Below the pieces are notes generated by a model. The model was given only the letters and a program-made list of their open reading frames with translations. It did no database searches and was not told the origin of the DNA. Shown here in pieces: positions 8,865 to 35,601 of a DNA stretch of 36,425 nt (its first letter is position 1; the number at the start of each line of letters is the position of its first letter). This DNA is from Gammaproteobacteria bacterium (GTDB taxonomy: Bacteria > Pseudomonadota > Gammaproteobacteria > Steroidobacterales > Steroidobacteraceae), in NCBI GenBank assembly GCA_016874175.1, contig VGUP01000009.1, positions 1 to 36,425 of the forward strand, written 5' to 3'. The position numbers and the translations under genes are program-made.

Positions 8865-10079
8865 TTAGCCGCCGCCTGCCGCCTGCAGCGTCGCTTGGGC
8901 AGTAGCTGCGCGTGCCGGCATGCGCGGCGCTTCGTCCAACACCCAGGCGTTCGCTTCGCGACGCGCGGGGCAGGGGATCGCGAACACCACATCGGCCTTT
9001 TCGCGGGCTTGTTTGATGCTCTGCATATCGAGCTTCCAGCCGCGTGCCTCGAACTCGTCGAGTTTGTCCCGGTACTGCAGGATGACTTTGTCGGCGGGCA
9101 TCATCAATTCTTTGGCGCGTGTCGGCGGCGTGAGCGTCGGTCGCACGTTGTTCATGACCTTGATGTCTTGCGAGGCGATGAACATGTTACGTTCGTTGAT
9201 TTTTTTGTCGAGCCAGGCGTTGATGCGCGGTTTGATCAGCTTGCCGATCGCGCCCATCTTGCTGCCCTTGAAAAAGACGATGTTGCGCTGATTGAGCAGG
9301 AACACGCGGGTGCGGTTCTCGTCGATCGGTGCCTCGAACATGTACTGATGCATTACCGTCTTGGGCGAGAAATTGATGTAGGTCCACATGTGGTTGGGAC
9401 CATAGGTACCCGAGCCCGCTTCCATCTTGCCGCCTTCCTTGCGGAACTGACGCATGATGGGATTTTTGAGCGGCGGCGCATCGAAGGTGGAGAGAAAGCC
9501 GTAGCCCCAGGGGTTGTTCTGGTGCGGGCGCAGTTCAGTCATCAGGTAAGTGTCTTCGCGCTCGCCCTGATATCCGTGGGTCGTGTGCACGTATTCGTTG
9601 TGCGCGGGATCGAGACCGTTTTCGATCGAGCGCTCGTAGTGATAGTTGACGTCAAAAGTGATGAGGGTCGAGCGCCACTCGTCGGTGCCGTGCTCGTCGA
9701 CCGGCATGATGGGCGGGCGTTGTTCTGCGGGCAGATCGCCCAGGAACGCGAACACGATGCCGTACTTTTCTTCGACCGGGTAGGCGTCGACACGCGCGCG
9801 CGGCGGCGGTTTGACGGTTTTACCGATCGAGGGAATGCGCGTGCAGACGCCTTCGCGATTGAAGCGCCAGCCATGGTAGGGGCACTGCACCGTGCCGTCG
9901 TCCTTGCACTTGCCTGACGAGAGGGCGGCGCCGCGGTGGATGCAGGTGTCGGCGAGCACCGCCGGCTTGCCCTGGTCATCGCGAAACACCACGAAGTCGT
10001 GCGCCAGGATGCGCACCTTTTGCGGTGTTTGGCCCAAGTCCTCGGCCCTGATCACCGGATACCAAAAGTTCATGTACAT
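8865..10079 (-). CDS. Rieske non-haem iron oxygenase, alpha-type subunit
   Basis: The 404-residue protein has an N-terminal Rieske domain with the 2Fe-2S ligands C46-x-H48 (TCIHRG) and C66-xx-H69 (QCPYHGW). A C-terminal catalytic domain carries the mononuclear iron motif ENGLDPAHNEYVH (bridging D157, ligands H160 and H165). Such enzymes hydroxylate, demethylate or dihydroxylate aromatic rings, terpenoids or steroids, using electrons from a separate reductase. No beta subunit, ferredoxin or reductase gene is present in the window, so it is probably a single-subunit (homotrimeric) type such as the O-demethylase or KshA-like group, fed by an unlinked reductase. An AAGGAGG sequence 10 nt upstream sets the ATG at 10079; a second ATG follows two codons later. 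The substrate is unknown. Confidence 0.9.
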   Translation of the reverse strand: MYMNFWYPVIRAEDLGQTPQKVRILAHDFVVFRDDQGKPAVLADTCIHRGAALSSGKCKDDGTVQCPYHGWRFNREGVCTRIPSIGKTVKPPPRARVDAYPVEEKYGIVFAFLGDLPAEQRPPIMPVDEHGTDEWRSTLITFDVNYHYERSIENGLDPAHNEYVHTTHGYQGEREDTYLMTELRPHQNNPWGYGFLSTFDAPPLKNPIMRQFRKEGGKMEAGSGTYGPNHMWTYINFSPKTVMHQYMFEAPIDENRTRVFLLNQRNIVFFKGSKMGAIGKLIKPRINAWLDKKINERNMFIASQDIKVMNNVRPTLTPPTRAKELMMPADKVILQYRDKLDEFEARGWKLDMQSIKQAREKADVVFAIPCPARREANAWVLDEAPRMPARAATAQATLQAAGGG

Positions 10080-10339
10080 AAAGGTTTGACCTCCTTGCCA
10101 ACCGGCGCCCGAGTTGCGGCGCGACCGACCCGATAAAACGGGCGCCTTGTACCACTCTCGCGCCCGAGCCTAGCGCGCTGGGACGGGCGCGTCCACCGCT
10201 TGGACGCCCGGCTCGCGCGCGTTGGCGAACGCGCGGCAAGGCGGCAGTGTGCTGCCCCGGGTGGGGGTGCGTCGCGCCGACGCAGAGGATAATGTTGGGG
10301 TGACACCCGCGCCATGCGCATAAACCGAAGGAGTCCACC
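10080..10339. other. Divergent intergenic region, Rieske oxygenase / 180-aa protein
   Basis: This 260-nt spacer holds no gene that I can support. It contains a GATAAT hexamer at 10288-10293 that could be a plus-strand -10 for the following gene, without a good -35. A short perfect inverted repeat, GCGTCG-CGC-CGACGC, lies at 10269-10283 just upstream of it and is placed as an operator would be. Shine-Dalgarno sequences for both flanking genes lie at its ends. Confidence 0.35.
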
Positions 10340-10882
10340 ATGCAAACAAATCCTATTTCGGCCGCCAACAGTGGCTTCGAGGGCAGGGAAGAGATGCTCG
10401 GGCAGGCCGTGGGGCTCGCGATCCGCACGCTCAAGGATTCGATGCCGTACCAGCATGAGATGAACGATGCACTGGTCAAAATGCATCTGAACTCGGTGCA
10501 GTTCGCCAAAAATAAGGGCTTGCTCAAGGAATACGTCGTGCATGACGTGAAGGCCATGGAGCCGATGCTCAAGCGCATGCGCGCCGAAATCGAGCGCACC
10601 GGTGATCGCGAGATCGCGCTCACGGGGATGTTCGAGCGCATGGCCTGTTTCTATCAGCTCTGTCTCGATCTGGCGGTGACCCCAGGGCGGCGCACGTTCA
10701 GCTTTCCGTTCAGTCACGTGCTCGATATTTCACGGCGTATCGGTCAGTTCGATCTCACTAACGAAGAAATGCATGAGCATTGGCTGAAGGCACGTCTATT
10801 GGGCTACGCGGCGGTGCTGGGGGTCGAGATCGAGGTGTCCGATATCGGCCCCGACAACAAGGTGACCGTGTCGTTGCGCTAA
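10340..10882 (+). CDS. Unrecognised 180-residue helical protein
   Basis: I do not recognise a family. The product is soluble, has no signal peptide or transmembrane helix, and is rich in predicted helix: a region with regularly spaced Met, Leu and charged residues spans about 15-110. It then has PGRRTFSFPFSHVLDISRRI around residues 118-137 and a compact alpha/beta-looking end (GVEIEVSDIGPDNKVTVSLR). The start ATG 10340 is set by AAGGAG 7 nt upstream. It is alone on the plus strand, divergent from the Rieske oxygenase and followed after 186 nt by a TonB-dependent receptor. It may belong to the same uptake/oxidation programme as an accessory or sensory protein, but that is context only. Confidence 0.75.
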   Translation: MQTNPISAANSGFEGREEMLGQAVGLAIRTLKDSMPYQHEMNDALVKMHLNSVQFAKNKGLLKEYVVHDVKAMEPMLKRMRAEIERTGDREIALTGMFERMACFYQLCLDLAVTPGRRTFSFPFSHVLDISRRIGQFDLTNEEMHEHWLKARLLGYAAVLGVEIEVSDIGPDNKVTVSLR

Positions 10883-11034: not shown

Positions 11035-11068
11035 GATGATTGGGTTGGTCATCTGATTGGGGGTCTAC

Positions 11069-13951
11069 ATGTCTAAATTTGCCAAAGGGCTTCATGGTCT
11101 TTGGGTGGCGCCGCTGACCGTTTGTCTGGGCATGCCCGCGTACGGGCAGGCACCGGATGAGGGCGCAGTACTCGATGAAATCGTGGTGACCGCGCGCAAG
11201 CGCGAGGAAAACCTGCAGGACGTGCCCATCGCGGTCACGGCCATCAGCGCCGAAACCTTGCAGCGCGAAGGCATCAAAGATGTGCAGGACATCGCTGCGG
11301 GCGATCCGAGTTTGGGTTTCGACAAAGGCATCGCGGCCTACGACACGCGGATCGTGATTCGTGGTCTCTCGCCGACGCGCGGCCGCCCTAATGTCGCAAC
11401 GCTGGTCGACGGCATCGACGTGTCGAGCGAGTCGATCGGTGTGGCCGGCGGTTCGCTGCTCATCAATCCGCGGCTCGTCGACATTGCACGAGTCGAGGTG
11501 GTGAAAGGTCCGCAAAGTGCGCTCTATGGTCGCAGTGCGTTTGCGGGGGCGATCTCCTACATCACGGCGGACCCTGATGACGAAGTCTCGGGTAACGTGT
11601 CGGCCGAGTACGGCCAGTACAGTCAGTACGACATCAAGGCGAGCCTGTCGCTGCCGATGAGCGACACCTTCGGCATGCGCCTCAACGGCTATTCTTTTGA
11701 CGAGCGCGGCTATTACAAGAACGTCGCTGGCGGCGAGTACGTTGGTGGCGGCGACGGCATGGGCGGTTCGCTCACCCTGAAGTGGGCGCCGACCGAGAAC
11801 TACTCCGTCAAGCTGCGGCAGGAGTACGCCGACGATCACTTTGATCAGGCCGCGCAGGCGACCGTCGCGTTCAATACTTTGGGCATTGTGCCGGCGACGG
11901 CATCGAGCTGCCGCACCTATTCGGTGGCGAATCCGGCGGGGGGGGCGAATCTCGTAGCGCCGGGTCCCGTGCTCGACGCCTCCTGCACCCTGATGGATGC
12001 GAACCCTGCAATCCCGGCAAATACGGTCAATCTGGTGCGCATATTCGAGACCGCGACCGGCAGCAAGGGTTATTACAACGATATGGCGGTGCCGGCGTTC
12101 CGCGGACAGATGGTCCGCGCAGGCGCGCTGGCGGTCCGCTACAACAAAGATTTCACCAAGTCGCTGGATAATGGCCTGACGGCGCCCGCGTTCCCGGGCA
12201 CCAACCGACAAGTGTCGCGGCTATCGGTCGTGCAGGAATATCAGTCTGATTACGGCACGTTCTCGTTGCTCTCGGGCTACACCAAAGCGAATGTCTCGAC
12301 GGACGTCGATTTCGACAAGGCCGACTTGCTGACGGCCATGCAGACCATCAAGACTGATAGCGAGACCTCGCAGTACAGCCAGGAACTGCGCTTCACGTCG
12401 GACTTCGAGGGTCCGGTGCAGTTCATCACCGGTCTGCAGTACTGGAAAGAAGAGGTTGCGCAGATCGACAACAACAACACGGTATTCGGTGCGGGTGTAG
12501 CCTGTCCGCTGGCCAGCGGCCCGCCGTTCACGGCACCGCCGTTGCCGCCGACCTTTGCGCCGAGCTATGCCTGTGTGGGTAATTCAAACATCGTCCCGGC
12601 TTTTGCGCGCTATACCTACACCGAGACCAGCGTCGTGCCCTACATGGATGATGTGGGTCGTGCACGCGTGCCAACGCTCGTCGAGCGTAATGTCAAACAC
12701 AAGTCGGCCTATCTCGAGTTCGAATGGGATATCACCGAGCAACTGCGCGTGATCGGCGAAGCTCGCTATATCGACGAAGACAACTCGGTCGCGGCGCCGA
12801 CGACGGCAGGTAGCCAGGGTCCGGGCACCGTGATTCTTTGTGGTGCGACCGGTGACTGTCGGGCGGCTGCGAGCATTCCGTATGCCGCAGCACCCGGCGT
12901 GCCGGCCTCGTTCGCGGGCCTCGGTGCACCGATCACGCGCTTGACCTACAAGCGCAATGACTCGTACGTGTCGCCGAAAGCGACGGTGCAGTGGAAGGCG
13001 TCCGAGGATCTGAACACCTACGCGTCGTACTCCGTCGGTAAGAAGCCCGGTGGGTTCTCAACGATCACAATCGGTGCGTTTGGTCTGCCCTCGCAGGCGG
13101 ATGTGGAGTTCGAGCCTGAACAGGTCAAGGTTTATGAACTCGGTGCCAAGTGGACTTCGCCCTCGCGCACTCTGCAGATCAACGGTGCGGCCTTCTTGCA
13201 GGACTTCACTGACAAGCAGGTGAGCACGCAGGTGATCATCGGCAACACGCTTGGCAACCGTATCACTAATGCCGAAGGCGGCGAGCTCAAGGGCATCGAA
13301 CTCGCAGCAACTTGGCGTGCCACCGAGAACATCACCATCGGTGCGGGACTCACGCATTTCTTTGCCTATGAATTTACCAACTACCGCACGCTCTCGGGTG
13401 GCGCCGCAGAAATTGCTCGCGTCGGCAACTGTACGCCGGTGACTACGGTGGTGGTGGAGTCGGGCGTCAACAAGGCGCGGGCCACGTGCTCGGTCGATCG
13501 CACAGGCAACAAGTTCGAAGACGTACCAGAAACCGCCGCAGCCCTCAACGTCAGCTATCGTAAGCCCTTAGGTACCGACTCGTTCTGGTTCGTTGACGTC
13601 GACACCAGCTATGCCGGTGAGCGCTTCATTGAAGACGACAACACGGTTTGGCTTGAGGCTTACACCAACGTCGACCTGCGCTTCGGCGTGGGTAACGAGA
13701 ACTGGGAAGCTGTGCTGTTCGTCAACAACGCGACCGATGACGACAAGGTCCGTTCTGCGGGAACGGGCCCGGCCAACGCGCTGGCGACGGTTCGTCTCAA
13801 CCAGACGATCGGTGCGGTGGGTGCGCGGGTGCCGGCTAATATGCGCAGCCCGTTCGGGGGTTCGCCCTTGGGTCTGAGAATTCCGACGCAGGTGTTCGCC
13901 AACATGCCGGATCCGCGCGTAGTCGGTCTGCGCGTGAACTACCGCTTCTGA
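11069..13951 (+). CDS. TonB-dependent outer-membrane receptor 1
   Basis: The 960-residue protein starts with a signal peptide (cleavage near AYGQA). A TonB-box-like region follows (DEIVVTARKREENLQDVPIA), then a plug domain with IRGLSPTRGRP and VEVVKGPQSALYGRSAFAGA, then a long beta-barrel ending in an aromatic residue (VNYRF). These receptors import scarce large or poorly diffusing substrates across the outer membrane using TonB-ExbBD energy. ATG 11069 is preferred over the in-frame TTG at 11057 because it follows a G-rich stretch (GGGGG) and opens a normal signal peptide. Its stop is 12 nt before a Tat-exported DUF1838 gene. A clearly related receptor follows, so the region is a tandem duplication. 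The ligand is not deducible. Confidence 0.93.
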   Translation: MSKFAKGLHGLWVAPLTVCLGMPAYGQAPDEGAVLDEIVVTARKREENLQDVPIAVTAISAETLQREGIKDVQDIAAGDPSLGFDKGIAAYDTRIVIRGLSPTRGRPNVATLVDGIDVSSESIGVAGGSLLINPRLVDIARVEVVKGPQSALYGRSAFAGAISYITADPDDEVSGNVSAEYGQYSQYDIKASLSLPMSDTFGMRLNGYSFDERGYYKNVAGGEYVGGGDGMGGSLTLKWAPTENYSVKLRQEYADDHFDQAAQATVAFNTLGIVPATASSCRTYSVANPAGGANLVAPGPVLDASCTLMDANPAIPANTVNLVRIFETATGSKGYYNDMAVPAFRGQMVRAGALAVRYNKDFTKSLDNGLTAPAFPGTNRQVSRLSVVQEYQSDYGTFSLLSGYTKANVSTDVDFDKADLLTAMQTIKTDSETSQYSQELRFTSDFEGPVQFITGLQYWKEEVAQIDNNNTVFGAGVACPLASGPPFTAPPLPPTFAPSYACVGNSNIVPAFARYTYTETSVVPYMDDVGRARVPTLVERNVKHKSAYLEFEWDITEQLRVIGEARYIDEDNSVAAPTTAGSQGPGTVILCGATGDCRAAASIPYAAAPGVPASFAGLGAPITRLTYKRNDSYVSPKATVQWKASEDLNTYASYSVGKKPGGFSTITIGAFGLPSQADVEFEPEQVKVYELGAKWTSPSRTLQINGAAFLQDFTDKQVSTQVIIGNTLGNRITNAEGGELKGIELAATWRATENITIGAGLTHFFAYEFTNYRTLSGGAAEIARVGNCTPVTTVVVESGVNKARATCSVDRTGNKFEDVPETAAALNVSYRKPLGTDSFWFVDVDTSYAGERFIEDDNTVWLEAYTNVDLRFGVGNENWEAVLFVNNATDDDKVRSAGTGPANALATVRLNQTIGAVGARVPANMRSPFGGSPLGLRIPTQVFANMPDPRVVGLRVNYRF
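11189..11224 (+). repeat. 36-nt direct repeat, copy 1 (copy 2 at 14987-15022)
   Basis: The two receptor genes share a 36-nt block encoding TARKREENLQDV with one mismatch (35/36). Similar but weaker identity continues in the plug region. The repeat reflects paralogy and could allow recombination that deletes the intervening DUF1838 gene. Confidence 0.8.
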
Positions 13952-13963: not shown

Positions 13964-14821
13964 TTGACGACCTTCGCGTTATCGCGTCGCTCCTGGCTCA
14001 GTAATTCACTGGTGCTTGGAGTAGGACTCGGAGCAGGGGCCCTGATGCCCCTGCCCGAGGCCGATGCGGCCTCGCGAGGTGCACTGCCCGATTTCTCTGA
14101 CCCCGCTGCGAACCTGCGCCAGATCGTGCGTATGCAGGGTAGCTTGCGTGAGCAAGACGTGCCTTGGTGGTTCACCGGTGTCATCTTTGCCGTGCGCGGC
14201 GACAACGAAACGCCGCGACCTCTCGTGCGTTTCGAGGGCATGGAGATTTATTGGTTCAAGCACACGCCCTCGGGCTATCAGCTCGGTGGCAATACCGTGA
14301 CGTTCTTCCGCGACTTCGAGACCAATGAATTTCTGTCCGAGTTCCGCAATCCCTGGACGGGCAAGACCGATGTCGTGAAGCCTGCAGTGCAGGGCGGAAA
14401 TCTCGGTTTCAGTTATGGCGTGGAGGGCATCTGGCCGGTGCGCCTCGATGGCACGGCAATCGGTGAGCCCAAGCGAGTGCCGTTGCGTTTGCAGTGGCAC
14501 AGCATGGGCGATCACGTTTGGCTACAGCATCAAACCGTGTATCCGCCCGGCATGCCCGCGATGCACGGCCAGCGACAGACGATGTTCGCGCGTGCCAGCG
14601 ATGTGCGCGAAGGCAAGCTCGATGCGCTACCGGCGACTTTTTCGTCGACGGTGTTCATGGGTTGGCTGAAATGGATGGACATGCAGGGCGAGCCCGGTCA
14701 CGTTGTCTGGCACGCCGCAGGAGCCAAATTACGCAGTATCGACGAGTTGCCGCGTGAATATCGAGAGCGCACAGCGCGCGAGTATCCGGAGCGCATGAGC
14801 GCCCAGCCGAAGTCGAATTGA
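13964..14821 (+). CDS. Tat-exported DUF1838 family protein
   Basis: The 285-residue protein has a twin-arginine signal (LSRRSWLSNSLVLGVGLGAG) leading to a mature domain that matches DUF1838. It is rich in aromatic residues, with motifs WWFTGVIFAVRGDNETPRPL and YWFKHTPSGYQLGGNTVTFF. The biochemical role of DUF1838 is not established; members recur beside TonB-dependent receptors in proteobacterial catabolic loci. The start is TTG at 13964, since no ATG precedes the Tat motif; initiation may rely on coupling with the receptor ending 12 nt upstream. Tat export suggests folding in the cytoplasm, perhaps with a cofactor. Its place between two related receptors suggests a periplasmic step on the imported compound. 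Confidence 0.82.
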   Translation: MTTFALSRRSWLSNSLVLGVGLGAGALMPLPEADAASRGALPDFSDPAANLRQIVRMQGSLREQDVPWWFTGVIFAVRGDNETPRPLVRFEGMEIYWFKHTPSGYQLGGNTVTFFRDFETNEFLSEFRNPWTGKTDVVKPAVQGGNLGFSYGVEGIWPVRLDGTAIGEPKRVPLRLQWHSMGDHVWLQHQTVYPPGMPAMHGQRQTMFARASDVREGKLDALPATFSSTVFMGWLKWMDMQGEPGHVVWHAAGAKLRSIDELPREYRERTAREYPERMSAQPKSN

Positions 14822-14865: not shown

Positions 14866-17668
14866 ATGAAAAAAAAACCATCTTGCAAAGCAGCGTCTTG
14901 CTGCGGCAATGGCGGGCGCCATGGCAACCGTCATGGCCATGCCAGTGCTTGCAGATAACGAAGCAGGCCTCGAAGAGGTGGTCGTCACCGCGCGCAAGCG
15001 CGAGGAAAATCTGCAGGACGTGTCGATGTCGATTACTGCGATCCCCGCGGCCGAGATCGAGCGCTTGGGGATACAGGACGTCGATGACGTCGCTCGGCTC
15101 GATGCCTCGCTCATTTACGACAAGGGCTATTCGGCGACCGACAATCGAATCTCCATTCGTGGACTCTCGCCCACTCGTGGTCGCGTCAACGTGGCTATTC
15201 TCGTCGATGGCATCGACACCTCCAGCGAGAGTATTTCTTTTGGTGGTGGATCGTTGCTGGCCACCAATCGTCTGCTCGACTTGCAAGCCGTCGAAATCGT
15301 CAAAGGTCCGCAGTCGGCGCTCTACGGACGCAGCGCGTTCGCCGGTGCCGTGCAATACGTGACCAAAGATCCTGCAAAGATTTCCGAGGGCAATATTCGC
15401 GGCTCGTACGGCGATTACGGTCGCTACGACCTTTCGGGTAGCTGGAGCAGGCCGTTGAACGACAGCTTCGGACTGCGGGTAAACGCCGTGTATTGGAATC
15501 AGGATGGTATTCACGCCAACATCGTTACCGGCAGCAAAGTGGGTGACGGTGACGGTTGGGGGCTTGCGCTCACCGGCAAATGGGAGCCGACCGAAAACAT
15601 GAGTGCCAAGCTGCGTGTCGAATACGCAGATGATCATTACGGTCAGTTTCCCACTGTGCAGATGCCCATCAATTTGGTGAGTGCTCGTCCGACAGCGGGT
15701 TCGCAGTGTCTGGTCGTAGGCAGCGGCGCTGCCGTGGCGGCGGTCAGCAGCCGTTGTCCGACGGGCAGCCAGCGCGTGTACTCGGGTACGACGGTGCTGC
15801 CACCGGGTTTCGTGCTGCCGCCAGGATCAGGTAACCCGGCATATCCCGGCACATTCTTTGGAAGCAACCACGTTTACTCGTCGGTGGGACGCGTACCCGC
15901 GGCGAGCAAACTTGCGGTCAAACTCGATCGTAATCCGTACACGGGTGGCGACTACGAAGGCAGCAACCGCGAGGTGTTGCGTGCATCGGCCGTCCTGAAC
16001 TGGACAGCGGAGCACGGTACCTTCACCTCGCTCACCGGCTACACCGACGCCTACTTCAATTTTGATGAAGACGGCGACTTCGACTCGGGGGTGGTCAACG
16101 GCGTCGATCTCGCCTCGCGTGCGGCGCGCTTCGACAACGAAAACGACACCAAACAATTCAGCCAGGAATTGCGTTACCGCTCGGACTTCGAAGGTCCCCT
16201 CAACGTGATGGCGGGCGTACTCTACTGGCAAGAGAAAGCCGCGCAGACCACACGCTCGATCAACATTTTCTGTCTATCGCCCGTGCCGTCGAACACCTTC
16301 TTCCCGGGTCAACCGCCGATTCCTGCGAGCTGCACGCAGGGTGGGCGGGTGCTCACGGCCAACCAGGCGATGGCGCAGATGACGCCGATTCCGCGTCTCA
16401 ACTCTCGCGATATCGAACACACCTCGATGTTCGGCATGCTCGAGTACGAGTTCGCCGACAGCTTCAAGATCTCGCTCGAAGGCCGCTACGCCGACGAAAC
16501 CGAGACGGTGGTGGGCGTGAACTGCTCGGCGAGCTTGACGACGCCGGGTGCGGGACCGCCGGGCACACCGCCGGTCGTGTGCCAGGATCCCTCATTCCCG
16601 GGCTTCCAGGTGTTCTGGCCGTCCATCAACTATCTCTATCCCTTCTTCAATCCGTTCGCGCCCACGGCACCGGGCTCGGGCGTGCGTCAGGCGCCGGGTA
16701 CGCCGGTCGAACTCGAAAGCACGCACAGCTACTTTGCGCCCCGTGCGACGTTCGAGTATCGCGCCAACGACAACGCGCTCTACTACCTGACCTAGGCGAA
16801 GGGCGTGAAGCCGGGCGGTATCTCCACCGTCACCGCGGGCTCATGGCAAGACGCCGATTACGATGGGCTCTACGAAGAGTTCAAGTTCAAGGACGAGAAG
16901 ATCCAGGAGTACGAGCTCGGGGCAAAGCTGCAGACAGAAGATGGCCGACTGCGCTTCAACCCTGCGGTTTTCCTGATCAAGTACGAAGACAAGCAGACAG
17001 GCGCACAGCTGATCACGCCTTCGGGAATCGCCGTGGGTCGACTGCTCAACGCCGGCAAGGCCGAAGTCGAGGGTCTCGAGCTTGATGCGCAGTGGGCACC
17101 GAGCGCCAACTGGCTGTTCGGGGTCAACTACTCCTTCTTGCGCACTGAGTTCACGGACTTCCCATTCACCTCGGCCTCGGCCACTGACGCGGTGCGCGTC
17201 AACGATTGCGGACGGCAGTTCGACACCGCTGCCAACGCTCGGCTGTGCTTCTTCAACCTGAGGGGCAAAGAGCTCGAGCGTGCGCCGAAGCACTCGGTGG
17301 TCGGGCTCGCCCGCTGGTCGATGCCGATGGGCGATTTCTTCGGGGGTTCGGGCGCAAGGTTCTTCATCGAAGGTGACATGCAGTACCAGTCGACGCGCTT
17401 CGTCGACTTCTTCAATCGCGTGAAGCTTGACAGCTACACGATTGGTAACCTGCGTATCGGCGTGACCTCCGATCGTTGGGATGTGCTCGTCTATGCGAAC
17501 AACATCACTGATGACGACACCTTCCAGGGTGGATCAGCCAACCCCGGCGATGTGGCGCAATCGCTCGCCGACCCGTCGAACTTTTCGCCCGCCAACACTA
17601 CTGGGCTGACGATGCCGGATCCGCGTATCATCGGCATCCGCTTCGGCTATCGGTTCGGGGGCAATTGA
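14866..17668 (+). pseudogene. TonB-dependent receptor 2, interrupted by a frameshift and an amber codon
   Basis: This paralogue of receptor 1 would be about 933 residues if intact. AGGAAG lies 9 nt before ATG 14866, but the ATG is followed by nine A residues (14869-14877). Reading with eight gives MKKNHLAKQRLAAAMAGAMA, a proper signal peptide, in frame with the rest; with nine it stops after about 30 codons. An in-frame ATG at 14909 could start a product with a shortened signal peptide. A TAG at 16793-16795 interrupts the barrel in YYLT*AKGVKPGG, where receptor 1 has YASYSVGKKPGG. The frame continues intact to a normal end (GIRFGYRFGGN) at 17668. Plug motifs IRGLSPTRGR and VKGPQSALYGRSAFAGA are present. 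It is either a recently inactivated gene or one carrying sequencing errors. Confidence 0.85.
14987..15022 (+). repeat. 36-nt direct repeat, copy 2
   Basis: This is the partner of 11189-11224, in the TonB-box region of receptor 2, with a single C/T difference. Confidence 0.8.
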
Positions 17669-17812: not shown

Positions 17813-17844
17813 GGTATTGAGTGTCGATGAGTATGGAGGGGGCC

Positions 17845-22309: not shown

Positions 22310-22337
22310 TTGATTGGCTGACCCGCCGGAGTATATC
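22310..22337 (+). promoter_or_regulatory. Promoter of the alpha/beta hydrolase, overlapping a minus-strand -10
   Basis: TTGATT (22310-22315), a 16-nt spacer and TATATC (22332-22337) form a plausible sigma70 promoter, followed by GGGGAGG 7 nt before ATG 22362. On the minus strand TATACT (22335-22330) overlaps it and could serve the MFS gene. The core reads GGAG-TATAT-CTCC, an inverted repeat centred on both -10s. Confidence 0.5.
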
Positions 22338-22361
22338 TCTCCGTTACGGGGAGGCCTGTCC

Positions 22362-24992: not shown

Positions 24993-25855
24993 TGGGCTAT
25001 TCATGGCCGGGCGGCGCACGCCTCGCGTTGTCGATCGTCGTCAATGTCGAGGAAGGCGCGGAGTTCAATATTCAGGATGGGGATCGATGCCCGGAGCCTG
25101 TCGATGAACTTGGCATCACCCTCAAAAAGCGGGTACGCAATTTCGGTAACGAGAGCAATTACGCCTACGGTATCCACGAAGGCGCGCCGCGGGTCTTGGG
25201 CTTGCTCGCGCGGCACGGCGTGCCTGCGACGTTCACGGCCGCGGCAGTGGCGCTCGAGCGTGCGCCGCAGGTCGCGCAGGGCATCATGTCGGGTGGGCAT
25301 GAAGTCTGCGCGCATGGTTATCGCTGGGCGCATCAGCTCGGCATGAGTGAAGACGCGGAGCGCGACTTCATTCGCAAGGCGACGGCGAGTATCGAGCACA
25401 AGACGGGCGCGCGGCCTGTCGGTTGGTTGTCGCGTTATCTGCACACGGCCGAGACTCGACGCTTGCTGCTCGAGGAGGGCTATCTCTATCACATGGACGA
25501 CTACAGTCGTGACGAACCGTTCATGGATCGCACGCTGGCGAAGCCCATGGTGGTGCTGCCCTACGCGCTCGACTCCAACGACATGAAAATGTGGAATGCG
25601 CCGTCGCTGACACCGCGCGATTGGTTGGCCTATGCCATCGACAGTTTCGATTGGCTGCTCGCCGAGTCCGAATCACGCCCGCGCATGATGTCGCTCGGCG
25701 TGCATTTGCGAATCATCGGCAGGCCCGGGCGTATCGGTGCGCTCGAAAAATTCCTGCAGCATGTGCGCGCCCAGGGCAAGCAGCAGGTGTGGGCGGCGCG
25801 GCGCCGGGATATCGCCGAGTATTACGCAGGTCTCGTACGCGGCGGTCTCGACTAA
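24992..25855 (+). CDS. NodB-type polysaccharide deacetylase-fold hydrolase, PuuE/HpPgdA-like
   Basis: The 287-residue protein belongs to the carbohydrate esterase 4 fold but resembles its cytoplasmic, cyclic-amide-hydrolysing branch (PuuE allantoinase, HpPgdA) more than cell-wall deacetylases. It has no signal peptide. The first motif is IVVNVEEGAEF, where classical members have a metal-binding Asp. The metal-binding histidines are probably H108 and H114 (VCAHGYRWAHQ), and RMMSLGVHLRIIGRPGRIG lies near the end. Coupling to an SDR and closeness to an amidase argue for hydrolysis of a C-N bond in a small molecule rather than polysaccharide work. That is inference. The stop overlaps the convergent amidase gene by 4 nt. 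Confidence 0.82.
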   Translation: MGYSWPGGARLALSIVVNVEEGAEFNIQDGDRCPEPVDELGITLKKRVRNFGNESNYAYGIHEGAPRVLGLLARHGVPATFTAAAVALERAPQVAQGIMSGGHEVCAHGYRWAHQLGMSEDAERDFIRKATASIEHKTGARPVGWLSRYLHTAETRRLLLEEGYLYHMDDYSRDEPFMDRTLAKPMVVLPYALDSNDMKMWNAPSLTPRDWLAYAIDSFDWLLAESESRPRMMSLGVHLRIIGRPGRIGALEKFLQHVRAQGKQQVWAARRRDIAEYYAGLVRGGLD

Positions 25856-28532: not shown

Positions 28533-29921
28533 GGGGTATCCGGGTCGAAAACGAGGGCATCTACGAGTCGACGCAGTTCGTCGAGCTGCTCGAGATCATC
28601 GACGAGGTGCTGCAGATGATCCATCGCGCGCGCACTCATCGGCCGCAGACCGGAGGTCGCAGCACGGTGAAATTTGGCGAGATGTCGTTCGCGGCCGAGT
28701 GGTCTGCCGGGTGCACCGAGCACTGCAGGCAGATCGAGTGCCAGCTCGCGACCATCCAACAAAGAAATCGCGACCCGCTGTGGCGCCAGCGCGTTGAGCG
28801 AGGGGTTTTGATCGCGCGCTACGCGGATCCGCGTTGCGAGCGCCTGACGACGCGCATCGGCTAATGCGGCAGGCTCGAAGTCATCGACACCGACGCTGCC
28901 GGTCAGCAACGCGGTCGCCGCCACATAAGGCAGACAGAGTCGCGCATACGAGGGCGCCATGTCGGGCGAGGGCGCACGATCGACCAGCTGTATGACGAGC
29001 GGTGGCGCGTGCACCCTGATCTCGCCGATGTGCTCGAGCACAAAGCCGTGTTGCTCGCGCAGTGTGAGGACGCCATCGACACCGCCATGAGTGGCGCGCC
29101 CGCTGGGGAAGGGCTTGTGCGACAACTCGGTGATGGCCTCGCGAGTTTCGAGTGCTGCGAACTCCGCGGGCTCCCACTCCGGATCCATCAGCGTGAAATA
29201 GCCGAACGGGCCCTCAAGGAAATCGACGGGACCGCGAACGCCGCGGCGCGCGAGGCACACGGCGTCGAAGGCGACGCGGGTATTGAAGCCGATCTGCATC
29301 GGCAGCACGGGCGAGCCTTCGATGTGGGCCTGCATGGTCCCGGAGAGTTGGCTGTAAGCGAGGCCGAGCGCACTACGCGTGGTGGCGGCATCGAGACCCT
29401 CGATATTCGCGAGGCCAGCCGTCGCCCCGAGAGCACCGCACATGGCCGGCCGGAAAAAGCGCAGCTTGTTGCGCGCGGCACGGCCGATGCCGGTCGCGAC
29501 GTCGACGGCAACACTGCAGCCCGTGATCAATTGGCGCGTTGACGCCACCCTGCGCCTCGCACCACGCGAGCAGCGTCGAGAGCACGACTGCCATCGGGTG
29601 GACGACGGCGGGCTCGTGTACACAATCCCACTCCTGATTATGGATTTGATAGCCATTGATGAATGCGGCGGTTGCGGCGGGAACGCGACGACCGGTGCCC
29701 CAGATGCGTGCTGCTTTGCCGCTGCCCCATTCGGCAGCGACGGCCTCGAGTTCGCGCACCATGGGGACTCGGGTGCCCGAGAGCGCGACCCCAAGTGAAT
29801 CCAGGATGAAGGTTTTCGTCGATTCGACCGCTGCCTTGGATAACCGCTCGTAACGCTGCTGCGTCACATGTTCCACGAGGCGGTGGGTGATGTTGCTGGG
29901 CGGGGCTTTTGAACTGCTCAT
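28529..29921 (-). pseudogene. MmgE/PrpD-family protein, broken by a frameshift
   Basis: Two adjacent minus-strand frames together make one ~463-residue MmgE/PrpD protein (2-methylcitrate dehydratase / immune-responsive-gene fold). The N-terminal part starts at ATG 29921 (MSSSKAPPSNITHRLVEHVT) and runs to WCEAQGGVN. The reading then moves to the other frame at RQLITGCSVAVDVATGIGRA and continues to the stop at 28529. The shift lies at about 29533-29541 and is equivalent to one extra or two missing bases. Conserved stretches sit on both sides (LDSLGVALSGTRVP; KPFPSGRATHGGVDGVL). Family members are dehydratases or isomerases of small carboxylates and epoxides, or have unknown chemistry. It heads the ligase-amidase operon and its start is only 27 nt from the divergent methyltransferase. 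Confidence 0.85.
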
Positions 29922-29948
29922 GAGAAGCACGATGCTACAATTTTGGCC

Positions 29949-31142
29949 ATGACACGCGCCACACGGCTCGACGCTGCGCCGCCTTGGTCCGAGGTGGGTG
30001 AGCACGCGATGTCGCCCACGGCGACGCACGATGAGATCGCGCGTTTCAACTTCCTCGCCAACTTCAACAAGTACATGTCGAATGTCGTGGTGGCGGGGAA
30101 TGCCGTCGCCTATGAGCGACGCGTGGCACCGCATTGGCGGGCGCAGCACGGCGTCGACCCGGCTAACCGGCGCGAGATCCGCGCAGCGATGAGCGCCGAC
30201 GCGTACTACCAGTTGTGGAGTGCGCTGCGTCGCAGTGGCATGGAGATGCGTCAGCAGGCGGGCCGTTCACTGGTATTGCGCCAGATGCAAGCGCTGAGGG
30301 ATCGCGCCCGCGAGCTCAATGCCGCCTGTGCAGCGACCCTGCGTCTCGATAATTCGATCGCGATTCCACCTTATCAAAGCGAGCTCGACAATCACTGCAT
30401 GCCAGGCAGCTATTACGCCGAATACATTGATGACGATGTGTCGGCGGCGGCGAACTACGACGCGGGGATGTTTGCCACCACGACCGGACTCTTCGGTCGC
30501 TATCTCGATGGCGCGGGGCGCGGTACGGCGCAATGGCTGAGCCGCTCTCGTCCGGGCTGGCAGCCGCGGCGTATTCTCGATCTCGGCTGCGGACTCGGCC
30601 ACAACCTCTTGCCGCTCGCCCGCGCTTACCCTGAGGCCGAGGTGGTTGGTGTCGATGTCGCGGCGCCGATGCTGCGCTACGGTCATTCGCGCGCCGTCGG
30701 CATGGGACTAGGTCGAGTGATTTTTCAGCAGGCGAATGCCGAGCGGCTGCCATTCGAAGACGCCTCCTTCGACTTCATTTACAGCACCATGTTTTTGCAC
30801 GAGACCTCGCATGCGGCACTGCGCAATATTTTCGGCGAGGTACGTCGCCTGCTAGCCCCGGGCGGTGTGCAGCTGCACCTCGAGCAACCGCCGTATCGTG
30901 GCATGAGCGATTTCGAGCAGTTTTTGCGCGACTGGGATTGTCACTACAACAACGAGCCGTTCTGGAGCGCGCTGCACGAAACGCATCTGCCCACGTTGCT
31001 CGCCGAAAAAGGTTTCGCCCAGGCGGATATCTTCGAGACCGAGATCCACGCCATCGTCGAGGACGAAATGCCCAAAGTGGCGACGGCGGTCGAAGATTTC
31101 GGGCGCGGTGGCCTGTGGTATGCCTGCGGCGCTGCGGCATGA
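29949..31142 (+). CDS. Class I SAM-dependent methyltransferase with long N-terminal extension
   Basis: The ~397-residue protein has a Rossmann methyltransferase core with motif I ILDLGCGLGHN (about residues 209-219), the acidic end of beta-2 (VVGVDVAAPML), and LPFEDASFDFIYS at motif II/III. About 200 residues precede the core, containing RFNFLANFNKYMSNVVVAGN and an acidic Tyr-rich patch (SYYAEYIDDDV). I do not recognise this extension. ATG 29949 is preferred; ATG 30009 (MSPTATH) is an alternative. A TACAAT box at 29936-29941 would place the transcript start almost on the first ATG, which would make it leaderless or favour the later start. The stop overlaps a 106-residue gene (ATGA). It may methylate a pathway intermediate or CoA-linked acid. 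Confidence 0.83.
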   Translation: MTRATRLDAAPPWSEVGEHAMSPTATHDEIARFNFLANFNKYMSNVVVAGNAVAYERRVAPHWRAQHGVDPANRREIRAAMSADAYYQLWSALRRSGMEMRQQAGRSLVLRQMQALRDRARELNAACAATLRLDNSIAIPPYQSELDNHCMPGSYYAEYIDDDVSAAANYDAGMFATTTGLFGRYLDGAGRGTAQWLSRSRPGWQPRRILDLGCGLGHNLLPLARAYPEAEVVGVDVAAPMLRYGHSRAVGMGLGRVIFQQANAERLPFEDASFDFIYSTMFLHETSHAALRNIFGEVRRLLAPGGVQLHLEQPPYRGMSDFEQFLRDWDCHYNNEPFWSALHETHLPTLLAEKGFAQADIFETEIHAIVEDEMPKVATAVEDFGRGGLWYACGAAA

Positions 31143-31459
31143 ACGAGCTCGATCTGCAAAAGTTGATTAATGCGGCAGCGAGCGGCAAGCGACCACATTT
31201 CTTTGGCGATCATGACGTCGATCGGCTACTCAGCATTGTTTGGGCGATGGCGGCAGAGCTGGCCGTGACGCGCGAGCGACTCGATACGGTCGAGCGGCTG
31301 CTCGCCGAGCGTGCGCTGCTCGATCGGGCGGCCATCGATGCCTATCGACCCGATGGGGCAGCCGCCGCGGAGCGTGGACAGTGGCAGATCGAATACCTCT
31401 CGCGCTTGCTGCGCGTGCTGCAGCAAGAGGTCGACGCGCTACGCCGCGAAGAGCGTTGA
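31139..31459 (+). CDS. Unrecognised 106-residue protein coupled to the methyltransferase
   Basis: The start ATG 31139 overlaps the methyltransferase stop by 4 nt, so it is almost certainly translated. The product is soluble and helical. A short N-terminal part (LDLQKLINAAASGKRPHFFG) is followed by two heptad-rich segments, around residues 30-62 (VTRERLDTVERLLAERALLD) and 82-106 (YLSRLLRVLQQEVDALRREE), which suggest a coiled coil. No family is recognised. A small subunit or dimerising partner for the methyltransferase is the natural guess from coupling. Confidence 0.75.
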   Translation: MNELDLQKLINAAASGKRPHFFGDHDVDRLLSIVWAMAAELAVTRERLDTVERLLAERALLDRAAIDAYRPDGAAAAERGQWQIEYLSRLLRVLQQEVDALRREER

Positions 31460-31478: not shown

Positions 31479-32504
31479 TCAAAGACTCCAGGTCCAAAAT
31501 TTCCAGTCGAGTACGCGCGTCTCTTGCTCGGCTTGGCCGCGTGCGGCGTAGCAATCAGCCTCGAGGCGCAGCAGAGCGCCGCCGCCCTCGGCGGTGCTGA
31601 GCGGTACGATGTCGGTAACGGTGAATTCGCTACGCAGGCGATCGCCCTCGATGACGGGTGCGAGGTGATCACAGCTCTCCCAGGCCAGCATCGACAGCAG
31701 GTTCGGCAGGGCGCGGGTGATTTGCGCAAAACCCATGAAAATGGTGTGACCTCCATAAACGAGTCGCTCGCCGAGATGAGAGAGCTTCGAGTCGGTATGC
31801 GCCATCGCCATGTTGAGCGACAGCCGTACGAGTTCGGGTGCTGCGGTGATTGTATCGCGTGCTTCGATCCGAAATCTTTGGCCGACCACGAGATCGGCTG
31901 CGCGTCGTCCGCTCCAAGCAGCGGTTGGCTCCAGCGTCCAGCCGCGTGGCACGGCTTGGCAGATCACAGTGGCGTCAACGGCTCTACCGATCGCATCGAG
32001 CTCATCGGCGTGGCCGGTGCGCGCTTCGGGATCGCGGCAAGGAAGCATCGGGCAGCGCCAGAAATGCAGTACGGTCGCGCCGCACTGGTTGGTCGTGGTC
32101 ATCTCGAGGGCGACGATGCCTGTGGCAGCCCGACCCGCTTGCGGGCCGTTCTGGCGCAGGCCCACCACGCGGGTCCTCGTGTGCAGGGTGTCGCCCGTGA
32201 AGACGGGTTGTTGCAGCGCGAGACCACGGTAGAAGAGATTGCCCTTGACGCGCTGCGAGGCCCAAGTCGACTGCCCGATCGCGATATTGATGGCGAGCAG
32301 CGGATGGCAGAGCGGCTGTTCGGCGCCGGTTACGCGCGCGGCAGTGGCCGCATCGAGCGGCAGGCGCAGGCGATCGCCAAACAGCGCTTGATGCAGGGCG
32401 CCATGACCGGCGTTCAAAGTGATCGCCGGCGCGTCGAACTCGAGCCCCGGGTAGAGATCCTCGAACCATGGGCCGCTGATATCGATCAGCTCGGTCGGGT
32501 TCAT
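31479..32504 (-). CDS. Double-hotdog MaoC-family dehydratase/hydratase
   Basis: The 341-residue protein is long enough for two hotdog domains, as in mesaconyl-C4-CoA hydratase and related MaoC proteins. The N-terminal half contains YRGLALQQPVFTGDTLHTRT. The C-terminal half contains NMAMAHTDSKLSHLGERLVY followed by GGHTIFMGFAQITRALPN, where the Asp/His and YGGH elements fit the hydratase active site. It would add or remove water at a CoA thioester. It overlaps the TauE/SafE gene upstream by 4 nt (ATGA) and lies convergent to the methyltransferase pair with 19 nt between. With the CoA ligase and the crotonase-fold protein it gives this island a set of acyl-CoA enzymes. Confidence 0.85.
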   Translation of the reverse strand: MNPTELIDISGPWFEDLYPGLEFDAPAITLNAGHGALHQALFGDRLRLPLDAATAARVTGAEQPLCHPLLAINIAIGQSTWASQRVKGNLFYRGLALQQPVFTGDTLHTRTRVVGLRQNGPQAGRAATGIVALEMTTTNQCGATVLHFWRCPMLPCRDPEARTGHADELDAIGRAVDATVICQAVPRGWTLEPTAAWSGRRAADLVVGQRFRIEARDTITAAPELVRLSLNMAMAHTDSKLSHLGERLVYGGHTIFMGFAQITRALPNLLSMLAWESCDHLAPVIEGDRLRSEFTVTDIVPLSTAEGGGALLRLEADCYAARGQAEQETRVLDWKFWTWSL

Positions 32505-33328
32505 GCGAAGGTCCTGAAGAGCATGCGTAGGGCTACCAAAGAAAGAAAGCCACCGAATATTTTGGATAGCGTGCGCTTATCTAGCGAGTGCGCGAGGCGC
32601 GCGCCAGTGGGGGCGCTGAGCATCGAGAGGGGTGCGACCAGCACCAGCACTAGCAGGCTGACGAGGCCCACGGTAGCTCCCGGCAGCGCGACGCCCGGAC
32701 TCGCCAGCAGGTAGCCCAGAGTGCCGGGAACCGACAGCAGCAGGCCAAAGAAAGCGGCGGTTCCTACAGCCTGGTGGATGGCGCCACCCGTCAGGGTCAT
32801 GGCGGGCACCGAGAGCGTGCCACCGCCTATCCCCATCATCGAGGACACGCCACCAATCACGGTGGCGATGAGCTTGCCAGCGAGGCCTTTTGGCACGCGC
32901 TCGGCGAGGCGCAGATGATCGAGTAGCAAAAACATTTTCAAGGAAATCAGCGCGGCGACCGCGCCGAAGACGCCCGTCAGCACATCGTCGCTGGCCCGCG
33001 AGGCCAGCAGGCTGCCGGCCAGGCCGCCGAGGATGATCCCGGGGGCCCAGGCGCGGGCGATATCCCAATCGATTCCGCCGCGCCGGTGGTGGGCACGCGC
33101 GGAGGATATCGAGGTCGGCACAATGGCCGCGAGCGAGGTGGCCACCGCCACGTGCATGCACCACTCGCGCGGGAAACCGGCGTAGGGCAGGGCGAGTTCG
33201 AGGACCGGGACCATGACGATACCGCCGCCCACGCCGAGCAAGCCGGCGAGCAGCCCCGCACACAGGCCCGTTGCCATGAGCAACAGGGCCAGCAGCCAGA
33301 GCGTGGAGGGGTCGGAGGCCAAAGCCAT
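32501..33328 (-). CDS. TauE/SafE family membrane permease
   Basis: The 275-residue protein has about eight hydrophobic helices in two related halves, each with the family's glycine-rich signature: GLLAGLLGVGGGIVMVPVLE near the start and IGGVSSMMGIGGGTLSVPAM in the middle. TauE/SafE proteins export or import small organic or sulfur anions such as sulfite, sulfoacetate or other carboxylates. ATG 33328 is chosen; an in-frame start at 33373 would add 15 polar residues and lie within the divergent promoter. It is the first gene of a two-gene unit with MaoC. Coupling to a hydratase suggests transport of a pathway acid rather than sulfite, but this is inferred. Confidence 0.87.
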   Translation of the reverse strand: MALASDPSTLWLLALLLMATGLCAGLLAGLLGVGGGIVMVPVLELALPYAGFPREWCMHVAVATSLAAIVPTSISSARAHHRRGGIDWDIARAWAPGIILGGLAGSLLASRASDDVLTGVFGAVAALISLKMFLLLDHLRLAERVPKGLAGKLIATVIGGVSSMMGIGGGTLSVPAMTLTGGAIHQAVGTAAFFGLLLSVPGTLGYLLASPGVALPGATVGLVSLLVLVLVAPLSMLSAPTGARLAHSLDKRTLSKIFGGFLSLVALRMLFRTFA

Positions 33329-33387
33329 GCGGATATCGAGTGTAGGGGAAGTTTCGTCCGCGCGTGGCAACACGTAGAGTGCAAGCC

Positions 33388-35601
33388 ATGCAGCGGCAGA
33401 ACGGCACCGATCGTCGTCAGTTCATGATTCGCGCGGCCGGCGCGGCGAGCGGCGCGTGGCTCGCCTTGGAACTGCCGGTGGCGGAGGCCATCGAACGGCA
33501 GGATGCGGGGCTGCCTTTGCCGCCGACGGCTTGGCGCAGTTCCGCGTGGCTCACGATGCAGCCCGACGGCTTGATCCTCGTCACCGTCCACAAAGCCGAG
33601 ATGGGGCAGGGCGTACTGACTGCGTTACCGATGCTGATTGCCGAGGAGTTGGCGCTGCCGATGTCCCGGGTCGCGGCCGTGCTCGCGCCTGCCGCCGATG
33701 AATTTCGTGACGAACGGGGTAATCAATCGACGGGTTACTCGAGCAGCATTCGCACCAGCTATCTGCCGTTCAGAACTTTGGGCGCCACGGCTCGCGAACT
33801 TTTGCTTGTGGCGGCTGCGCACGAATGGCAAGCCGACCCGACGCGGCTGCGGGTGCAGGATGGCTACGTGGTCGACCCGGCGAACAGCGCTCGACGGGTG
33901 CCATTTTCGGCGTTGCTCGAGACCGCGCGTACGCTAGCCGTACCCGTCAAGCCGACGCTCAAAGATTCCTTGCAGTTTCGGTTGCTCGGCACGCGTCCGA
34001 CCCGACTCGATACGCCGTCAAAGATTGATGGCAGTGCCGTGTTCGGCATCGATTTTAAACTACCCGGGATGAAGGTAGCGGTACTTGAGCGCACGCCGAC
34101 GTTCGACGGCGTCTTGAGCGATGTGGACGATGCTGCAGCGCTCGCCATTCCCGGGGTGGTGTCGGTGCGGGTGCTGCCGGTAGGCGTTGCGGTGATTGCC
34201 GATTCTTTCTGGGCAGCACAGCGTGGGCGAGCCGCGCTCAAAATTGATTGGGATCCGGGGGCCAACGAGGCGCAAAACTCGGCGCAGCACGAACGCGAGC
34301 TGACAGGACCCATGCCCGATCAAGGTCATCCGGCGCGCGTGCGCGGTGATGTCGATCGTTTGCGTCGCGATCCTGAAAACCGTTGGCTCGTCGCCGATTA
34401 TTTTGCCCCGTTCCTCGCCCATGCCGCGCTCGAGCCGATCGCCACCACGGTCTGGTTTCATGATGGTCTGTGTGAAATCTGGGTGGGTACCCAAGCCCCC
34501 TTGCGAGCGCAGGATGCGGCGATGAAAGTCACTGGCTTGCCGCGTGAGCGGGTCAAGGTGAACTGCCTGCAGATCGGCGGCTCCTTCGGTCGTCGCGGCG
34601 AGCGCGATTACATCACCGAGGCGGTGACAGTCGCCCGTAGCATGCCGGCGACGCCGATCAAGCTCATGTGGAGTCGCGAGGACGACATGCGCGCAGACTT
34701 CTACCGTCCGGCGAGCGCGCATCGGGTGGCGGGCTGTGTCAATCCGCAGGGTGAGCTCGTTGGTCTCGCTCATCGCGTGGTCGCGCCGTCGGTCGCGCGC
34801 CGTCGCGCACCCGAGATGCTGACCACTGCCCATGATTTTTTGCTGACGCAGGGCAGCGATGACTCGCTCTACGACATCCCGCACCTCCGCGTCGATTACC
34901 ACGAACTCGATCTTGGCGTGCCGGTCGGTTTCTGGCGCTCGGTCGGTCACTCGTACAACGTCTTCGTGATCGAAAGTTTCATCGACGAGGTGGCGGCCTT
35001 GGCCAAGCGCGATCCTGTGGACTTGCGGCTCGAATTACTGCGTAACGATCCACGCATGCTGCGCGTGTTGCGGGCCGCTGCCGCAGCAGCGGGTTGGGGG
35101 CGCAAGCTCGGCGCGGGAATGGGTCTCGGCATTGCCTGCTCGAAAAGCTATGAAACGCGGGTCGCCGTGGTCGCCGAGATCAACGTCGAGGGTGCGAGTT
35201 GGCGCGCGACTCGCCTCTGGTGCGCGGTTGATTGCGGCAGCGTGGTCCACCCGGGTCAGGTTGAGCAGCAGATTCAGGGTGGTCTCGTATTCGGGCTCAC
35301 GGCAGCGATGTACGGCGAGATCACCTTCGACAAGGGCGCCGTCAAGCAGGCCAACTTCGATGCTTACCCTTTGCTCGCGATGTCGGCGATGCCGCGCATC
35401 GCGGTGCAGTTGATGGCGAGTGATGAGTCGCCGACCGGCGTTGGCGAGCCGGCGACGCCGGTCATCGCGCCCGCCGTGGCCAACGCGTTGTTTGCCACCT
35501 CCGGTCAGCGTCTGCGGCGCATGCCGCTCAAGCTCAAAGAACCGCCGAGAGAGACTGCAAAATCGCCGTCAACCTTGCGTCGTCCGGTCACCGACCGATA
35601 G
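33388..35601 (+). CDS. Tat-exported molybdopterin-binding subunit of a xanthine-dehydrogenase-family hydroxylase (IorB-like)
   Basis: The ~737-residue protein resembles the large subunit of isoquinoline 1-oxidoreductase and membrane-associated aldehyde dehydrogenases. A twin-arginine signal (TDRRQFMIRAAGAASGAWLA) sits at the N-terminus, a known feature of the IorB branch. Molybdopterin-contact regions include GQGVLTALPMLIAEELALPM, VGTQAPLRAQD and QIGGSFGRRGERDY. The catalytic glutamate is E687 in TGVGEPATPV. These enzymes hydroxylate N-heteroaromatics or aldehydes with water as oxygen donor. The partner with two 2Fe-2S clusters (IorA) is not adjacent on either side. ATG 33388 is preferred; GTG 33364 is also possible. 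Assembly would need CMP-modified cofactor, consistent with the MocA-like gene at 6.7 kb. Confidence 0.9.
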   Translation: MQRQNGTDRRQFMIRAAGAASGAWLALELPVAEAIERQDAGLPLPPTAWRSSAWLTMQPDGLILVTVHKAEMGQGVLTALPMLIAEELALPMSRVAAVLAPAADEFRDERGNQSTGYSSSIRTSYLPFRTLGATARELLLVAAAHEWQADPTRLRVQDGYVVDPANSARRVPFSALLETARTLAVPVKPTLKDSLQFRLLGTRPTRLDTPSKIDGSAVFGIDFKLPGMKVAVLERTPTFDGVLSDVDDAAALAIPGVVSVRVLPVGVAVIADSFWAAQRGRAALKIDWDPGANEAQNSAQHERELTGPMPDQGHPARVRGDVDRLRRDPENRWLVADYFAPFLAHAALEPIATTVWFHDGLCEIWVGTQAPLRAQDAAMKVTGLPRERVKVNCLQIGGSFGRRGERDYITEAVTVARSMPATPIKLMWSREDDMRADFYRPASAHRVAGCVNPQGELVGLAHRVVAPSVARRRAPEMLTTAHDFLLTQGSDDSLYDIPHLRVDYHELDLGVPVGFWRSVGHSYNVFVIESFIDEVAALAKRDPVDLRLELLRNDPRMLRVLRAAAAAAGWGRKLGAGMGLGIACSKSYETRVAVVAEINVEGASWRATRLWCAVDCGSVVHPGQVEQQIQGGLVFGLTAAMYGEITFDKGAVKQANFDAYPLLAMSAMPRIAVQLMASDESPTGVGEPATPVIAPAVANALFATSGQRLRRMPLKLKEPPRETAKSPSTLRRPVTDR

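Follow-up and report, generated by a model that had tools for sequence, protein, structure and literature searches.

A conserved PuuE-centred gene set on a Steroidobacteraceae contig and its possible role in opening cyclic imides or ureides

The 36,425-base stretch analysed here (the window) is the entire contig C9 (VGUP01000009.1) of a gammaproteobacterial draft genome and carries, next to a gene read as aspartate kinase, a block of about twenty catabolic-looking genes that includes a PuuE-like hydrolase, a short-chain dehydrogenase (SDR), an amidase, a PaaK-like CoA ligase and a PrpD-family protein. We put the probability at about 0.55 that this block is a conserved two-part uptake-and-breakdown locus, which opens a cyclic imide or ureide, frees ammonia and passes the remaining acid on to CoA-dependent breakdown. 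The reading is built on the observed gene content, the synteny within the genus, the recurrence of the set in other proteobacteria and the separate clade formed by the PuuE-like hydrolases.

In the first part of the locus, which nearly all members of the genus have, TonB receptors and an MFS carrier would import the substrate and a Rieske oxygenase would oxygenate it. In the second part, common to many proteobacteria, the SDR would oxidise a hydroxylated cyclic amide to the imide, or produce an equivalent ring carbonyl. Ring opening would follow through cleavage of a C-N bond by the PuuE-like hydrolase, and the amidase would act on the half-amide to yield ammonia. The freed acid would be converted into its CoA ester by the PaaK-like ligase, or perhaps by a CoA-transferase in other lineages, and then be processed by the PrpD-, MaoC- and crotonase-type enzymes. 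The step order, the imide chemistry and all substrates are inferred; SDR, PuuE-like hydrolase and amidase are read by analogy with HxnW, HxnM and HxnN of Aspergillus nidulans. There, according to excerpts of the published account, the SDR HxnW converts a hydroxy-lactam to an imide, which is opened by HxnM, a relative of HP0310 and PuuE with imidase activity, and the amidase HxnN releases the nitrogen (PMC9304392).

When 84,980 species genomes were scanned with an alignment of the PuuE-like hydrolase (A1), at least 521 relatives were found, the best 80 of which were analysed; 10 lie in the genus and 70 outside it, in Alpha-, Beta- and Gammaproteobacteria, 47 of the outside loci being 20 kb or longer. 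The reading frames of the outside loci were searched at fixed cut-offs with profiles made from the genus orthologues of the window genes. The PaaK-like ligase was found in 42 of the 70 loci, the amidase in 32, PrpD in 31, MaoC in 29, the SDR in 27 and the enoyl-CoA hydratase-like protein (ECH) in 14. At least one of PaaK, amidase and PrpD is present in 46 loci and all three in 20, and the SDR lies immediately upstream of PuuE on the same strand in 22 of the 27 loci that bear it. In a rough control, identical models and cut-offs gave no PaaK, amidase, PrpD, PuuE or SDR on 18 unrelated loci. The methyltransferase (10 loci), TonB receptor 1 (8), the aldehyde dehydrogenase (ALDH; 6) and DUF1838 (4) are less frequent, and the genus profiles for Rieske, MFS carrier 2, TauE and the 180-aa gene matched none of the 70. 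In searches of an open-licence library no paper was recognised as describing the gene set, and the widespread PuuE-centred set appears to be undescribed there.

Within the genus (24 genomes), the stretches of all 23 relatives were mapped against the window genes. The block adjoining the aspartate kinase shows synteny throughout the genus; there are gains and losses, but the gene order, beginning with mocA and Rieske and ending with TauE and the kinase, is constant. The PuuE-like gene is present in 18 of the 24 genomes, the Rieske gene and the kinase in 22 each. Ten relatives, termed spanning, were judged to hold most of the locus on one contig. MFS carrier 2, ECH, SDR, PrpD and MaoC occur in all ten, Rieske and TauE in nine, mocA in eight, and PuuE, PaaK, ALDH, DUF1838 and TonB receptor 1 in seven each; the alpha/beta hydrolase is found in six, the amidase in six (seven with G008, whose 39% identity lies below the cut), the IorB-type Mo-hydroxylase in three (one a fragment) and MFS carrier 1 in one. 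MFS carrier 1 is present in 4 of the 23 relatives, and a mocA-like gene with 36-49% identity in nearly every genus genome. This MobA/MocA-like gene borders the block in 8 of the 10 spanning relatives, including blocks that have no Mo-hydroxylase gene. An original prediction, made from the window sequence, had proposed a candidate catabolic island, and the block does look catabolic, with genes that are co-conserved. The C-N hydrolysis and CoA activation that the prediction included form the most informative part of the block, in which SDR, PuuE-like protein, amidase, PaaK and PrpD recur elsewhere.

Families were assigned by Pfam/NCBIfam matching of the window reading frames, giving the following genes in and beside the block:

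6744-7493, minus strand: MobA/MocA-like nucleotidyltransferase (PF12804), at the block edge and outside 8865-35601
7393-8715, minus strand: MFS carrier 1, accessory, outside 8865-35601
8865-10079, minus strand: Rieske oxygenase (PF00355 and VanA_C), CxH-x17-CxxH motif from residue 46
10340-10882, plus strand: 180-aa protein, in 15 of 23 relatives, with no match in Pfam, NCBIfam or PHROG
11057-13951, plus strand: TonB-dependent receptor 1
13964-14821, plus strand: DUF1838 protein with an SRR-type N-terminus and a predicted beta-rich fold
14909-17668, plus strand: TonB-dependent receptor 2, with an in-frame TAG
17821-19533, plus strand: FG-GAP/ASPIC-UnbV protein, accessory, in 9 of 23 relatives
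19530-20966, plus strand: ALDH
20926-22302, minus strand: MFS carrier 2, genus core
22314-23339, plus strand: alpha/beta hydrolase
23311-24081, minus strand: ECH
24150-24992, plus strand: SDR, overlapping the start of the PuuE-like gene by 1 base
24992-25855, plus strand: PuuE-like hydrolase of NodB fold, putative opener of a cyclic imide or ureide
25852-27123, minus strand: amidase-signature hydrolase with GGSSGG and GTDTIGS motifs and Lys65
27120-28532, minus strand: PaaK-like CoA ligase
28529-29921, minus strand: MmgE/PrpD protein, frameshifted near 29536
29943-31142, plus strand: SAM methyltransferase, in 9 of 23 relatives
31139-31459, plus strand: 106-aa protein, behind the methyltransferase in other lineages too
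31479-32504, minus strand: MaoC-like protein with a weak score (27.7 bits, cut-off 27)
32501-33373, minus strand: TauE/SafE permease
33364-35601, plus strand: large subunit of an IorB-type Mo-hydroxylase (MoCoBD), orphan, accessory

The enzyme families, the two TonB receptors and the TauE carrier named in the original prediction were all recovered, PrpD with a frameshift and TonB receptor 2 with a stop. Both of its MFS carriers exist, only the one at 20926-22302 being inside the 8865-35601 island that it had delimited. At the window edges, LptF/LptG and an AA_kinase protein were confirmed, while the left-end pepA was identified by eye alone. The 180-aa gene, DUF1838, the FG-GAP/ASPIC protein, the methyltransferase and the small gene at 31139-31459 had not been listed.

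The best NCBIfam match of the PuuE-like protein is allantoinase PuuE (TIGR03212) with 228.8 bits, below the cut-off of 424.6. In the A1 alignment, 15 of 15 PuuE-like rows have E-x3-H, as do 1z7a and 3cl6; the Glu of this motif would replace the first metal-binding His of HP0310 (excerpts of PMC3084791). HP0310 is the structural relative given for HxnM in the excerpted account (PMC9304392), and PuuE is described in excerpts as metal-independent, with a small cyclic imide as substrate (PMC3084791, PMC10967932). In the tree, 86 PuuE-like rows (one sequence entered twice, L105 being A1 L024) split from 7 allantoinase-like rows with a support of 100/99. These seven comprise six proteins of the same order, for which the label allantoinase-like is our own, and the annotated Klebsiella PuuE, whose gene adjoins ureidoglycolate lyase; no ureide gene is among the Pfam/NCBIfam families of the window. 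L134, L147 and L158 each carry, in the vicinity of the first, another and more distant PuuE-like copy that is split into two pieces.

The closest solved relatives of PrpD are cis-aconitate decarboxylases. The catalytic residues of the human enzyme ACOD1 are D93, T97, H103, K207, H277 and Y318. When the intact PrpD of a relative was compared by eye with 7br9 and 6r6t, only the His103 position looked kept, and a decarboxylase of this type was therefore rejected.

In the outside loci, clustered reading frames include acyl-CoA dehydrogenases (25 of 70), family III CoA-transferases (21) and CitE-type lyases (17); parts of TRAP transporters are common neighbours as well, and Pfam supports representatives of the frequent neighbours. 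Shewanella, Alkalimonas, Thalassotalea, Colwellia, Aestuariibacter and others have, in this order, SDR, PuuE, lyase, MaoC, acyl-CoA dehydrogenase and two CoA-transferases, the MaoC matching mesaconyl-CoA hydratase in Pfam. The top models for the Shewanella lyase, MaoC and transferase are RipC, RipB and succinyl-CoA:mesaconate CoA-transferase, all below cut-off. On plasmid pTM2 of Tistrella mobilis the annotation lists a polysaccharide deacetylase family protein, a TRAP transporter, MmgE/PrpD, an acyl-CoA dehydrogenase and CoA transferases. This company of lyase, hydratase, transferase and acyl-CoA dehydrogenase suggests that the downstream compound in those lineages is a branched C4-C6 dicarboxylic acid. 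The window version instead has PaaK, ECH and a distinct, longer MaoC-like protein.

Two further families were seen around the outside loci. An arylmalonate decarboxylase/EutA-type frame recurs near the PuuE-like genes of L111, L119, L122, L131, L135, L150, L127 and L171; this superfamily includes maleate isomerases. A 242-aa family, found only in other lineages and without a Pfam match, adjoins the methyltransferase in some of them, and its structure match (DUF1849, 6ntr, Z 17.2) is uninformative for the block.

Several observations weigh against an imide- or ureide-opening locus as proposed above. G007, G016 and G020 have no PuuE, amidase or PaaK, apart from a 72-aa PaaK-like stretch in G016; in G003 the SDR adjoins PrpD with none of the three genes between them, and G014 has the amidase without PuuE and PaaK. 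SDR, PrpD and MaoC are retained in all five relatives and therefore act without the hydrolases there; several relatives without the hydrolase module keep ECH as well. Among the enzymes, conservation is lowest for the amidase (39-62% identity in 16 of 18 genus genomes), and the PuuE-like protein is nearer to the allantoinase 3cl6 (211 bits) than to HP0310 (3qbu, 66 bits). The 70 outside loci were selected with PuuE alone, from among its nearest homologues, and their counts ignore kinship; among the 47 loci of 20 kb or more, 16 have no PaaK, amidase or PrpD, and 4 of the 47 have none of these and no SDR. Finally, no lyase, transferase or acyl-CoA dehydrogenase family was matched in the window by Pfam/NCBIfam, and the single CitE-like gene of the host genome, 35% identical, lies off C9. 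Since hydrolase genes are absent from some relatives, the block is modular, with at least two modules, and the part most clearly handling nitrogen is the part that gets lost. The step order of the original prediction is half right overall, and a single ordered pathway is not supported, given this loss.

The same loss of hydrolase genes from relatives that retain the remainder is what would be expected if two or more unrelated catabolic modules merely adjoin, with Rieske, TonB, MFS, SDR, PrpD, MaoC and ECH serving a compound that contains no nitrogen, for instance a terpenoid or steroid fragment, and PuuE, amidase and PaaK added for another purpose. The absence of the Rieske gene from all 70 outside loci also fits this explanation, as does a weak match (88 of 600 bits) between the N-terminal part of the VanA_C-type Rieske protein and a model of 4beta-methylsterol monooxygenase. 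However, SDR and PrpD persist where the hydrolases are lost and also accompany PuuE in other lineages, and we regard adjoining modules as unlikely. That the PuuE-like gene encodes an allantoinase and the block supplies purine or ureide nitrogen is quite improbable: its top NCBIfam match and its best named solved match, 3cl6, are indeed allantoinases, but the score is far from the cut-off, the clade is separate and the window has none of the ureide company that the Klebsiella gene keeps. Methyltransferase and PaaK-like genes are also found in biosynthesis, and the listed relatives of the ligase include AjiA1 and 6siw; yet a biosynthetic block, in which methyltransferase, ligase, PrpD and hydratase would make a secondary metabolite, is very improbable given the TonB receptors and carriers in the window and the acyl-CoA dehydrogenase and lyase partners and TRAP transporters in relatives.

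The block might also end the breakdown of tetrapyrroles (chlorophyll, heme, bilin) in water bacteria, an improbable explanation in which oxidative fragmentation would yield alkyl-maleimides, PuuE and the amidase would convert these to alkyl-maleates, and the latter would enter PrpD/CoA-dependent cleavage. Once hydrolysed, hematinic acid is a homologue of 2-methyl-cis-aconitate, one carbon longer, and PrpD handles such compounds. Beside the PuuE operon of Paraferrimonas (L127:3265-4080) lies a gene matching red chlorophyll catabolite (RCC) reductase with 52.8 bits (cut-off 24.9); a homologue with 69% identity occupies the same place in L171. The reductase family is present in 14 of 24 genus genomes and 25 of 118 relatives, and rare in samples of the class (4 of 369) and phylum (1 of 398), the host genome being counted in both. 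Its co-occurrence with PuuE among the 118 relatives has a Fisher p of 1.5e-9 when all are pooled, of 0.0014 outside the genus and of only 0.05 inside it, values that ignore kinship. In the class sample, PuuE occurs in 3 and the reductase in 4 of 369 genomes, both together only in the host. Among 50 of the 70 outside PuuE genomes the reductase was found in 2, one being G073, and a general link was rejected on its absence from the other 48. Moreover, no part of the PuuE set was seen in 18 reductase loci, the reductase is unlinked to the block in the genus, and the PaO domain PF08417 was unmatched in the host genome and above cut-off in 0 of 118 relatives.

The DUF1838 protein was considered in the same context. 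Its predicted model aligns with the bilin lyases 4tq2 (Z 10.5) and 3bdr (Z 9.0) and with nitrobindin (Z 7.9), the top VIA match being BFA1 (5yvf, Z 10.6, 133 aligned residues, rmsd 2.8), followed by 4tq2, whereas Foldseek gives TM-scores near 0.2-0.3 only. The barrel that this model has in common with the bilin lyases says nothing on function. The host gene of the RCC reductase family (G000:C44:3557-4045, L191; 35.8 bits, cut-off 24.9) is flanked by frames named by eye as GNAT-like and glycerophosphodiesterase-like, and in other families of the order (L199, L201; L202, L203, L207, L208) an RCC-reductase-like gene has, again by eye, either an adjacent ferrochelatase-like frame or a nearby 2Fe-2S-ferredoxin-like one.

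The original prediction had placed a Mo-enzyme hydroxylation adjacent to a ring nitrogen at the start of an aromatic pathway, and neither element is supported. IorB is present in 5 of 23 relatives, one copy being a fragment, with a further 33-residue piece at a contig end of G012. No gene for the small [2Fe-2S] subunit lies alongside it; the three Fer2_2 genes of the genome are all off C9, those on C16 and C61 adjoining other IorB-like genes and the C10 locus having no IorB match. Its best solved match is the large subunit of an aldehyde dehydrogenase. On these grounds together, IorB was rejected as a core entry enzyme. The aromatic substrate depended on the Rieske protein, which aligns with solved structures chiefly over its N-terminal Rieske part and whose gene is missing from all 70 outside loci. 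In G003 and G007 no Rieske match was found anywhere in the genome, and their contigs end within the locus. A Rieske paralogue with 44% identity is present at G000:C195:825-1943.

The host draft genome has 2,557,637 bases in 254 contigs, with a given completeness of 96.34% and contamination of 1.48%. Its close relatives are metagenome-assembled genomes (Gammaproteobacteria bacterium, uncultured proteobacterium (Erken), Steroidobacteraceae bacterium), mostly freshwater by our reading of the isolate names, by which the host would be a water bacterium. The G+C content of C9 per kilobase is even throughout (0.59-0.67), and composition therefore gives no hint of recent import. TonB receptor 2 is interrupted by the TAG at 16793-16795, with an open reading on either side; the eight orthologues that cover this place (66-80% identical) have Trp (6) or Tyr (2). 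At the PrpD frameshift two bases fewer are present than in the two closest relatives, which remain in frame. Intact copies of both genes exist in relatives, and the two lesions may be genuine decay or draft-assembly errors. Positions 1-261 of contig C185 are 99% identical to the final 87 residues of the kinase truncated at the end of C9, and C185 is probably the next contig.

If the proposed cyclic imide or ureide route is correct, Alpha-, Beta- and Gammaproteobacteria would share an undescribed way of recovering both nitrogen and carbon from such rings, hidden because its proteins are easily labelled polysaccharide deacetylase, amidase or PrpD. Cultured carriers, among them Shewanella, Niveispirillum, Colwellia and Caenimonas, render the substrate testable.

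In order to place the block among known systems, it was compared with four of them. Like riboflavin/lumichrome (lum) catabolism (PMC12746152), it brings a xanthine-oxidase-type Mo enzyme and a Rieske dioxygenase together with amide hydrolysis within a single cluster; in contrast, lum has a P450, an extradiol dioxygenase and a two-component Rieske system, and the block has PuuE-like, PaaK and PrpD proteins. The likeness to RipABC itaconate degradation lies in the RipC-, RipB- and mesaconate-CoA-transferase-like genes of PuuE operons in other lineages, but these all score below the curated cut-offs and the window has neither lyase nor transferase, on which grounds Rip-type membership was rejected. 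PuuE allantoinase has the same fold family and E-x3-H, and differs in the clade, score and ureide neighbourhood described above. Unlike the hxn genes for nicotinate catabolism of A. nidulans, the block has a hydrolase closer to allantoinase than to HP0310 and adds a CoA ligase, PrpD, MaoC and Rieske enzyme, which are absent from the excerpted hxn account (PMC9304392). A Mo-hydroxylase begins the hxn pathway in that excerpt, and some carriers of the block possess one; as in hxn, an SDR, a hydrolase of the PuuE/HP0310 superfamily and an amidase stand together in the window.

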